The translations under genes were made by a program, and so were the position numbers. A stretch of 64,000 bases of DNA from Bosea sp. (in: a-proteobacteria) (GTDB lineage Bacteria > Pseudomonadota > Alphaproteobacteria > Rhizobiales > Beijerinckiaceae). Shown here piece after piece: positions 6,357 to 38,824 of this stretch. Where the stretch lies: assembly GCA_023910605.1 (NCBI GenBank), contig JAAVVV010000001.1, positions 1,478,698-1,542,697 of the forward strand. Direction: 5' to 3'. The notes under the pieces were generated by a model, which was given only the letters and a program-made list of their open reading frames with translations, did no database searches and was not told where the DNA came from. Each line of letters opens with the position of its first letter. Within the stretch, counting starts at the first letter, position 1.

Positions 6357-6836
6357 TCAGAGCGCGCGCTCGAAACGCAGTTCGCCGCCCACGCCCTGCA
6401 GCACGAGCTGGCCATTGACGATGTCCCATTTGCGTGCCCCGCGCAGCGACACAAGGAAGCTGCGCTCTGCCGCCATGGCCGGGGCAGGGCAGGCGCGCCG
6501 CGTCACGGCCACCGGCCCCACGGCGAAGCCCTGGTCGCGAAGCGGATAGGCCGCGGCCGAGAAGGTGTTGCAGCCCGCGAAGCCCTTGGCGCGCAGCTGG
6601 TCGTCGATGACCAGCGTGGGGCGCTCGCCATCGAGCGGGCGCCCGTTGAGGCTGATCGCCGACCACGAGGCGCCCAGAGGGAACTGCTTCTCGGTGCGCG
6701 GCTGCGGCACGGGGTTGGTGTCCGAATAGCGCGGATCGGGCCGGGTCTGGGCCAGCGCGCCCGCCGCGACAAGGCCAGCTGCGGCGACCATGCCCACAAG
6801 GGCGATACGTCTGGAAGAAAGCAGTCTGCGCGACAT
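6357..6836 (-). CDS. META-domain secreted protein
   Basis: The chosen ATG at 6836 gives 159 residues with an N-terminal hydrophobic signal (RRIALVGMVAAAGLVAAGAL) and a likely cleavage after ALAQ. The rest is a META/HslJ-type domain: LGASWSAISLNGR, CNTFSA, and the conserved late Cys in TRRACPAP, which could pair with the Cys of CNTF. The open frame continues upstream to 7121, but that part has no signal-like or conserved character. HslJ proteins are linked to stress and novobiocin resistance in E. coli; a periplasmic role here is inferred. It is convergent with the ABC transporter gene, and the 43-bp gap holds a GC-rich 7-bp hairpin (6328-6346) without a T tract. Confidence 0.8.
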   Translation of the reverse strand: MSRRLLSSRRIALVGMVAAAGLVAAGALAQTRPDPRYSDTNPVPQPRTEKQFPLGASWSAISLNGRPLDGERPTLVIDDQLRAKGFAGCNTFSAAAYPLRDQGFAVGPVAVTRRACPAPAMAAERSFLVSLRGARKWDIVNGQLVLQGVGGELRFERAL

Positions 6837-7111
6837 CGAAACAACCCGATCAGGTGCGGCATGGCCGGCGGTCCATGCCCAAGGCCGAAAACTCAGGAAA
6901 CCGGTTGCGGACCATAGAAAGCTGCGCCGCATAGTCAACTTCGCAAGCGCGCCCCAGCGCCCGGCCTCGGCCACTTCATCGCCACCGGTGCAAGCGAGGC
7001 TCATTGCACGACAGTCGGTTTCGCCCGCCTTTCCGGCGCAAGATTGCGAGGCGCGCTCAGGTTCCGGAAAAACTCGCCAGCTTCGCTGATCCGGCCTCGG
7101 GCAAACTACGT

Positions 7112-7220
7112 ATGCCACCACGAAGCTCCTTTTGGACTTCCTTCCCCAAGGTCAGCCCACCCCTCCCCGGATGGGCTGTTTTCTGTGAGGCCACCTCTCC
7201 CCCGGGGTGGCCTCTTTTTT
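7112..7220 (+). ncRNA. Candidate small RNA with two C-rich-loop hairpins (cuckoo-like)
   Basis: The 419-bp gap between two minus-strand genes contains a plus-strand structure that neither explains. Hairpin 1 has a 7-bp stem CAGCCCA/TGGGCTG (7153-7178) with loop CCCCTCCCCGGA. Hairpin 2 has a 9-bp stem GAGGCCACC/GGTGGCCTC (7187-7214) with loop TCTCCCCCGG and then six T. Two successive stem-loops exposing anti-Shine-Dalgarno-like CUCCCC loops, ending in an intrinsic terminator, are the hallmark of the alphaproteobacterial cuckoo/CcsR/ar14-15 type sRNAs. The 5' end (about 7112) is a guess from the usual ~100 nt length; I cannot point to a clear promoter. Confidence 0.5.
7187..7220 (+). terminator. 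Rho-independent terminator of the candidate sRNA
   Basis: A 9-bp GC-rich stem with a 10-nt loop is followed directly by T6 on the plus strand. On the minus strand the same hairpin is not followed by T, so it does not serve hisG. Confidence 0.8.
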
Positions 7221-7255
7221 GGGCGCGTGCTGGCTCCAGCGCCAGAGCTTGCGGT

Positions 7256-8290
7256 TCATGCCTGGCCGATGCGGCCCAGCAGCCTTTCCAGCAGCGGGTT
7301 GTCCTGCCGGAAGACGTAATCGAGCGAGCGCACCGTCACGTCGCTGGCGCCCGCCTCCTGGAGCGCATCCGCCAGTGCGAAGACCGAGTCTGCCGGGCAA
7401 TGCGCGGTCAGGATGCCGGCGCCGGCCCCGTTGGGCGCGCCGAATGGCAGTCTGGCCTGATGGCGGCCGATCAGATCCCAAAGCGCGGCTTCCTCCAGCT
7501 CGCCAGGCCGGGCGCGCACCTCGCTCATGCGGCGGCCTTCTTCCTCGGCTGCGATGCGCAACAGGATGGACCGGGCGGCGCGACGGGCGCGTGCGCCCCA
7601 CGAAGCCTTCATCGAGGCGACGAGGTTAGCTTCCGAGGCCAGCATCACCCCGTCATCCAGCACCTTCAGCGCGTTCGCCGCCAGGGTGGACCCGGTTGTG
7701 GTGATGTCCACGATGATCTCGGCCGTGCCTGCGGCCGGCGCGCCTTCCGTGGCGCCGAGACTCTCGACGATCCGGTAATCGGTCACGCCATGCCCGGCGA
7801 AGAAGCGCCGGGTGAGGTTCACGTATTTCGTGGCGACACGCAGCTTGCGGCCATGGCGCAGGCGCATGTCCTCGGCGATGTCATCGAGATCGGCCATGGT
7901 CGCGACATCGATCCAGGCCTGCGGCACGGCCACCACCACATTGGCCGAGCCGAAGCCGAGCGGCGTGATCAGTTCCATCGTCCCCGCCACGTCGGCCACC
8001 TGCTCGCGCACCAGGTCCTCGCCCGTGATGCCCAGATGCGCTGTGCCGCTGGCCAGCTGCGCCACGATTTCCGATGCCGACAGGAACGCGACCTCGACAT
8101 CCGCGAGCCCGGCGATGACGCCGCGATAGTTCCGCTCGCCCTTCTGCTGGGCGAAGGCGAGGCCTGCGCGGGCGAAGAAGGCCGAGGCGTTTTCCTGCAG
8201 CCGGCCCTTGGAGGGCACGGCCAGCACCAGCGGCGGATCAAGCGAAGGGCCGGCGGCGGCGCTGTCGGCGGAGGAATTCATGGCGCTCAT
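7256..8290 (-). CDS. hisG: ATP phosphoribosyltransferase catalytic subunit
   Basis: A 344-residue HisG, the first enzyme of histidine synthesis (ATP + PRPP to phosphoribosyl-ATP). The periplasmic-binding-protein-like catalytic core carries [12 protein letters not shown], the substrate-binding [11 protein letters not shown] and the PRPP loop DITTTGSTL. The core would end near residue 250. A further ~90 residues end in a segment ([19 protein letters not shown]) that resembles the ferredoxin-like HisG C-terminal domain of the long form. The ATG overlaps the hisZ stop region by 4 bp, so the pair is translationally coupled. Confidence 0.95.
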
Positions 8291-38431: not shown

Positions 38432-38587
38432 CCGCCAGATGTGGCGTCATGCGGCCCGGATGCAAGCGCCAGGCGGGCGTTTCCGGCCGAAGCGTGCTGA
38501 TCGCAGCCATCCTGCTGTCCCCATAAGCAATGATGCGGATGGTCCCGGTCGATTGCCAAGCCGCATGCCATGTGTTTGTTGAAGCGG

Positions 38588-38776
38588 CTTTCGGTGCCTC
38601 CCTTGAAGGGGAGGTGAAACGGGAATGCGGTGCGGCCTCACAAGGGCCCAAGCCGCAGCTGCCCCCGCAACTGTAAGCGGCGAGCGTCGCCTCAATCGCA
38701 CCACTGGCCTCACGTGCAATGCGTGGCTGGGAAGGCGAGGACGATGCAGTGACCCGCGAGCCAGGAGACCGGCCGG
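38588..38776 (+). promoter_or_regulatory. Cobalamin riboswitch
   Basis: A ~190-nt leader with the class-defining elements in order: GGTGCC and the following hairpin, GCTGCCCCCGCAACTGTAAG core, CACTGG, GGGAAGGC and the B12 box GAGCCAGGAGACCGGCC. It sits directly ahead of a BtuB-type receptor, so binding of adenosylcobalamin should lower its expression. The start site GGAG of the receptor is ~40 nt downstream, consistent with translational control; no T-rich terminator is obvious. Confidence 0.93.
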
Positions 38777-38824
38777 AAGCTTGTGCAACACGTTCCCGGC
38801 GGTGGGCCGGGGCTCGGAGACTGT

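Follow-up and report, generated by a model that had tools for sequence, protein, structure and literature searches.

The 64,000-nucleotide stretch of Bosea sp. DNA analysed here (the window) contains, next to hisG, what is probably (we estimate three chances in four) an autonomous gene for a trans-acting small RNA (sRNA) with C-rich loops, driven by an RpoE-type sigma factor and representing an RNA arm of the photo-oxidative stress response. In the best reading of the data, this RNA would act like the cuckoo/ar14/CcsR and GsrN RNAs, yet it differs from all of them in the features examined as marks of membership. The gene has not been catalogued previously, and its carriers are a Bosea-like phototroph and a scattering of relatives. 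As judged from the sequence, the novelty would lie in the combination of a C-rich-loop sRNA with an RpoE/ChrR-type promoter, sRNAs with C-rich loops as such being already known. In the literature searched, to which the original description of the cuckoo family did not belong, no RpoE-type C-loop sRNA beside hisG is reported.

The window belongs to a host genome of 3.76 Mb from the genus that includes Bosea, and the features of the gene and its flanks are compiled in Table 1. The initial annotation had described two tandem plus-strand hairpins with C-rich loops followed by T6, located between two minus-strand genes. Both hairpins and the T6 are present, and family matches identify the flanking genes as coding for a META-domain protein and HisG, the closest genes altogether being META, hisG and SbmA/ABC. 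Both hairpins had been recognized correctly, except that two C's assigned to the loop of hairpin 2 pair with GG. These elements (7153-7220) make up the 3' two-thirds of an RNA of roughly 100 nt, whose gene spans about 7087-7220 on the plus strand, because hairpin 1, the linker and the promoter, which are located upstream of them, also belong to it; hairpin 1 and the CUUCCCC linker had been missed, and the TGATCC-N16-CGTA motif lies upstream of the part described initially. The transcript would start 5-8 nt past the CGTA. A terminator scan of 6850-7300 yielded two sites (shuffles, 0.7 +/- 1.0), a plus-strand one formed by hairpin 3 and its T tail, and a minus-strand one at 7089-7077. Folding of 7100-7230 (131 nt) gave z = -3.2, with one of 200 shuffles equally good, and folding of the predicted transcript alone gave z = -4.3 (100 shuffles). 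Five open frames overlap the sRNA gene and the flanking sequence, none of them with a Pfam match. Elsewhere in the window, a cobalamin riboswitch was recorded at 38575-38791 on the plus strand (131.9 bits).

Table 1. Positions of the sRNA gene elements and of the neighbouring genes, counted from the first nucleotide of the window.
Feature	Position	Strand	Description
RpoE/ChrR (ECF11-type) promoter, predicted	7087-7112	+	-35 TGATCC at 7087-7092, 16-nt spacer, -10 CGTA at 7109-7112
sRNA transcript, predicted	~7117/7120 to 7219/7220	+	~100 nt; from promoter and terminator
Hairpin 1	7122-7140	+	GAAGCUCC-UUUU-GGACUUC; loop not C-rich
Single-stranded linker CUUCCCCAAGGU	7141-7152	+	CUUCCCC at 7141-7147; pyrimidine motif with CCC end, 3' of hairpin 1
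Hairpin 2	7153-7178	+	stem CAGCCCA / TGGGCTG; hexaloop CUCCCC, anti-SD-like
Hairpin 3	7187-7214	+	11 bp, loop UCCCCC; intrinsic terminator stem
Terminator U6 tail (T6 in DNA)	7215-7220	+	read directly from the sequence and found by terminator scan
META-domain protein gene	6360-6836	-	PF03724, 71.3 bits (cut-off 24); divergent neighbour, context only
hisG	7256-8290	-	TIGR00070, 178.3 bits (cut-off 75.75); convergent neighbour, context only

The three-hairpin structure is conserved and covaries. In an alignment of 30 copies, which was made on a covariance model and is therefore fitted to the structure, so that the pairing measures favour it, 95.4% of the cells are paired (77.4 after shuffling), both partners differ in 108 cells (shuffles, 29.5 +/- 5.2; slid partners in the same alignment, 5-19), and the covariation score reaches 0.505 compared to 0.178 for shuffled data; none of 500 shuffles attained any of the five structure measures. 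Changes on both sides occur in all four pairs of the outer helix of hairpin 1 (100% of cells paired), in all four pairs of the hairpin 2 helix (89.3%) and in nine of the 11 pairs of the hairpin 3 helix (100%), while the inner two pairs of hairpin 1 are the weakest part, with 71.4% of the cells paired. Compensatory changes across relatives, on which the initial annotation had staked its proposal, are thus seen at least once in 19 of 21 pairs, and its proposal of an independent sRNA gene whose C-rich loops resemble an anti-SD sequence is supported. Model-free folding gave z values from -4.3 to -8.2 in all 30 copies. The 5' hairpin is found in every copy, and exactly three hairpins in 28; L300 and L301 show four, which is partly an artefact in L301, as this copy was cut at an internal T-run and its hairpin 3 was omitted from the loop counts.

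A view on loops and stems among the relatives, a comparison likewise suggested at the outset, shows that the stems vary and that hairpins 2 and 3 mostly retain C-rich loops, as is expected if the loops carry the function. The C content amounts to 71% in the loop of hairpin 2, 80% in that of hairpin 3 and 31% in that of hairpin 1; CCCC occurs in the hairpin 2 loop of 24 of the 30 copies and in the hairpin 3 loop of 26 of 29 (without L301). No C-run is found in the hairpin 3 loop of the three copies from the Salinarimonas group, and the linker motif, seen in 25 of the 30 copies, is missing in the five of genus g27 (L303, L304, L306-L308), so neither of these elements is indispensable by itself. 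C-rich terminator loops are also found in other alphaproteobacterial RNAs.

This layout was the basis for regarding the RNA as cuckoo-like, and it might indeed be a true member of the cuckoo/ar14/CcsR group that descends from a common ancestor, retains three hairpins and anti-SD loops and has only changed its promoter. We consider this unlikely. ar14 is the Rfam family with the lowest E-value in the window region (1.5e-4 in 401 bases), as it is in a lenient scan for L118 and L293, and the three hairpins as well as the occurrence of CCUCCUCCC in hairpin 3 of three relatives fit such a descent. However, the scores of 32.8, 35.1 and 34.7 bits miss the gathering threshold of 58.8 every time, CcsR1 attains 19.0 bits compared to 65.3, and of the other loci among the five scanned leniently, L288 matched suhB, and L290 and L142 matched nothing. 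No Rfam family reached its threshold in the window region, and there were no gathering matches in 20 homologue loci. ar14 is described as consisting of three hairpins, each with an unpaired CCUCCUCCC, behind the sigma-70 promoter CTTAGAC-N17-CTATAT (PMC10746234). The loops in the window are UUUU, CUCCCC and UCCCCC, that of hairpin 1 not being C-rich at all, and exact copies of CCUCCUCCC are confined to three of the 30 copies (G026, G031 and G034) and do not include that of the window. TGATCC-N16-CGTA occupies the place of the sigma-70 promoter, a simple scan for plus-strand sigma-70-like sites in 6850-7300 found none, and the neighbours are META and hisG. The C-rich loops of the initial proposal are retained, but only two of the three hairpins have one, the promoter is of neither ar14 nor CcsR type, and the assignment to the family itself is not supported.

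An autonomous RNA could also work by sequestration, its C-rich loops binding a protein or a ribosome-related factor rather than mRNAs. The conservation of the loops as short C-runs instead of one specific seed would agree with this, but GsrN, a characterized C-loop RNA driven by an ECF sigma factor, pairs with G-rich RNAs (PMC5869019), and we regard sequestration as improbable.

Since a plain DNA search of 61 genomes retrieved only the copies of the three nearest relatives, a covariance model was needed for remoter ones. The first, RNA-only model (R1; six training sequences, no promoter columns) gave seven matches of at least 40 bits outside the training set, found among 67 genomes of the genus (G088, G067 and G004), among 397 genomes of the order (G360 and G273) and in 80 named hisG loci (Salinarimonas ramus and S. 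rosea). Two of the matched genomes belong to another family, where the gene is not located beside hisG. An additional match in G083 scored 36.5 bits (E = 1.8e-5 genome-wide and 9.7e-8 in a small search) and lies at hisG with GCATCC-N16-AGTA. The weaker R1 matches that were read (E from 1e-5 to 1e-3; L121 and L143-L148) show no promoter motif, and the specific range of R1 therefore ends near there. The second model (R2) includes promoter columns and so partly selects promoter-bearing copies, of which it found 22 in 397 family genomes. This count disregards the GCATCC variants in G004 and G009, the coding-like matches in G619 and G597, a different RNA with a promoter in G772, the promoterless matches in G715, G680 and G468, and everything that scored lower; among the matches assigned a locus number (L285-L343), 45 of 59 were read, namely L285-L329. 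A class-wide R2 search of 385 genomes with strict filters gave, besides the own genome, a best match of 30.5 bits without a promoter (L315).

In 20 of the 22 R2 copies, a hisG match on the other strand ends no more than about 110 nt away. It is about 1 kb away in L296, and in L292 the SbmA/META-like side is kept, with a flavin-oxidoreductase-like gene instead of hisG on the other side (names judged from sequence). L141 and L142 from another family have no adjacent hisG match and are set among other genes. The copies away from hisG (L141, L142 and L292) indicate that the unit is kept in its own right and is not a mere by-product of hisG. Some further loci in these searches deserve mention. The exact TGATCC-N16-CGTA followed by a short transcript with a terminator, without a hisG match alongside, was seen in L317 (G1039; terminator loop CUCCCCC), which we take as a lead, and in L310 (G772); both are possible further RpoE-type sRNAs. 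Similar tandem C-loop hairpins without a TGATCC promoter occur in three genomes of genus g43 from family f36 of the same order (L154-L156).

The site at 7087-7112 is identical to TGATCC-N16-CGTA, given as consensus of the RpoE/ChrR-type sigma factor of Pseudomonas syringae (PMC5507510). Single sites of this kind are no proof: the host genome contains 17 loose TGATCC-N15-18-CGTA sites (17.9 expected from composition) and eight with N16 (4.5 expected), and because the genome-wide count fits the base composition, occurrence of the motif by itself proves nothing, and the case for a promoter rests on its conservation. The exact motif lies only a few bases 5' of the RNA in six of the seven non-training R1 matches of at least 40 bits (G088, G067, S. 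rosea, S. ramus, G360 and G273), the seventh, G004, having GCATCC-N16-TGTA. Among the regions downstream of hisG in the genus, it occurs opposite hisG in seven of 61, never with spacers of 12-15 or 17-20 nt, compared to a mean of 0.01 (maximum 3) for permuted motifs. The exact motif is absent from the other 54 regions, nine of which contain GCATCC-N16-CGTA. The 80 named hisG loci carry either form on the RNA strand in seven cases and on the opposite strand in one, and the six named Methylobacterium/Methylorubrum loci have no motif beside hisG. The spacers in the 22 counted R2 carriers are N16 in 16, N15 in five and N17 in one. Controls with the reversed motif gave zero counts in the genome and at chrR loci but are weak, as the reversed motif contains the rare CTAG; permuted-motif, spacer and composition controls were used instead. 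The nine genus loci with GCATCC-N16-CGTA at the same place, with spacer 16 only, are L044, L057, L170-L173, L176, L180 and L193. In the GCATCC forms that were read, hairpins follow, most of them with C-rich loops but mostly without a T-run; these forms may represent a diverged or decaying version or one read by another sigma factor.

The combined evidence leaves little room for two simpler explanations. Hairpin 3 with T6 is a good terminator just beyond the hisG stop, and the hairpins might serve merely as a tandem or bidirectional terminator for hisG or a plus-strand transcript without any regulatory RNA; this is very improbable, since the T-run works for the plus strand alone, with the divergently oriented META as the closest gene upstream, covariation extends to hairpins 1 and 2, the promoter motif, unlike the stems, is conserved exactly, and the unit is retained away from hisG. 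The one-strand T-run, the covarying hairpins 1 and 2 and the conserved promoter led us to reject this terminator explanation. The second possibility, a small coding RNA comparable to Pos19 from Rhodobacter sphaeroides, with which the gene shares the promoter type (PMC5036791), is hardly credible and was likewise rejected: an ATG is found where hairpin 1 begins at its base in several copies, but in most of them its frame reaches the end of the transcript without a stop, in L298 it is closed following 13 codons, and in the window copy it does not exist; copy lengths differ by non-multiples of three, and no start codon with a common frame exists across the 30 copies.

Features of an RpoE/ChrR (ECF11) regulon are found in the host, which combines the promoter TGATCC-N16-CGTA with genes for ChrR and a candidate sigma factor. 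Its genome contains one ChrR gene above the cut-off (TIGR02451); the motif precedes the matched part of this gene by 135 nt and is also found in front of an RpoH gene. The closest ECF sigma gene is 49% identical to the chrR-linked sigma factor of a relative and is not adjacent to chrR. Across the order, TGATCC-N16-CGTA precedes chrR in 26 of 30 loci, exclusively with spacer 16 (none at 12-15 or 17-20), compared to a mean of 0.02 (maximum 3) for permuted motifs. Note that the host chrR (L096, L108) keeps the RpoE-type motif upstream without a neighbouring sigma gene, the nearest sigma-E homologue being located at C1:410975. The motif was also seen upstream of a thioesterase-like open frame, as judged from sequence, in L076 (host C1:3390479).

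The host genome further contains two genes for photosynthetic reaction centres (Photo_RC), as would be expected of an anoxygenic phototroph at risk of singlet oxygen. Photo_RC genes are found in 17 of 67 genomes of the genus, comprising all eight known TGATCC-type carriers and nine of the 59 others. Phototrophs account for 18 of the 22 carriers in the family scan, compared to 108 of the other 375 genomes (Fisher p = 9e-7), and by genus the ratio is 7 of 8 to 12 of 35 (p = 0.014); both tests ignore shared ancestry and are weakened by it. Four of the 22 carriers, belonging to genus g168, gave no Photo_RC match, and 108 of the 126 phototrophs in the family scan no counted R2 match.

The step from promoter to RNA is well supported by these sequence data. 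Singlet oxygen or peroxide would free sigma-E from ChrR, plus-strand transcription would proceed from the ECF11 (RpoE/sigma-E, ChrR-controlled) promoter at 7087-7112 to the hairpin 3 terminator, and an RNA of about 100 nt would accumulate. The step from RNA to target is modelled on ar14, CcsR and GsrN: by analogy, CUUCCCC in the linker and the two C-rich loops may pair in trans with G-rich ribosome-binding regions of target mRNAs, perhaps with a need for Hfq, and mostly lower their translation. A rough duplex scan covered 50 start regions, consisting of 48 window regions with rough gene starts plus rpoH and chrR. Its top rank went to the antisense of the sRNA itself; rpoH came sixth and was strongest for the hairpin 3 loop among the 12 rows listed, GGGGGGUGAG adjoining its start codon facing that loop. 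The rpoH duplex is a hint towards a feed-forward loop. It is conceivable, if still doubtful, that the RNA represents an undescribed family forming a direct arm of the sigma-E/ChrR singlet-oxygen response in phototrophs of the Beijerinckiaceae and of one or more further families, and represses the co-regulated rpoH among others via its C-rich loops, as an incoherent feed-forward brake on the path from sigma-E to RpoH.

Should the predicted promoter be functional, an sRNA with anti-SD-like loops would stand directly under the singlet-oxygen sigma factor, one step earlier than the Rhodobacter CcsR RNAs, which are placed under RpoHI/HII. This would offer a conserved and testable post-transcriptional part of photo-oxidative defence in phototrophs, and the covariance models may be used to annotate genomes in which Rfam finds nothing at threshold. 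Together with the cuckoo RNAs and GsrN, the gene would be another alphaproteobacterial coupling of stress sigma factors to C-rich-loop RNAs, raising the question whether such RNAs share an origin or have converged. The sigma-EcfG promoter used for comparison reads GGAAC-N-CGTT.

The relation to the known systems may be outlined as follows. The RNA resembles ar14 / NfeR1 (RF02344) of the cuckoo family in its length of about 100-120 nt, its three hairpins, its C-rich anti-SD-like loops, its variable stems and conserved loops and its occurrence in Alphaproteobacteria, and differs from ar14 by the sub-threshold score, the restriction to two C-rich loops and the RpoE/ChrR-type promoter. CcsR1-4 (RF02791) of R. 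sphaeroides are C-rich-motif sRNAs of the photo-oxidative stress response (PMC7074977), processed from the ccaF1 (DUF1127) operon, which is transcribed from an RpoHI/HII promoter (PMC10253847). The RNA shares with them the C-rich motifs and the photo-oxidative stress setting of a phototroph, but its CcsR score is below gathering, and it is encoded singly, behind a promoter motif of its own; co-transcription with DUF1127 is not apparent among the neighbours META, hisG and SbmA/ABC. Like Pos19 (RSs0019) of R. sphaeroides, transcribed from the RpoE promoter TGATCC(N15)GCGTA (PMC5036791), it is an sRNA gene behind an RpoE-type promoter, and unlike Pos19, a 219-nt RNA carrying sORFs, it shows no coding sign. 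GsrN of Caulobacter is a stress-related sRNA driven by the general-stress sigma factor sigma-T/EcfG, with a C-rich loop in the 5' part and homologues typically, with exceptions, near ecfG/nepR/phyR (PMC5869019). With GsrN, the RNA has in common the direct control by an ECF sigma factor, predicted in our case, a C-rich loop and a putative stress role, whereas it is distinguished by the RpoE/ChrR motif TGATCC-N16-CGTA, the C-rich loops in hairpins 2 and 3 and the location between META and hisG.
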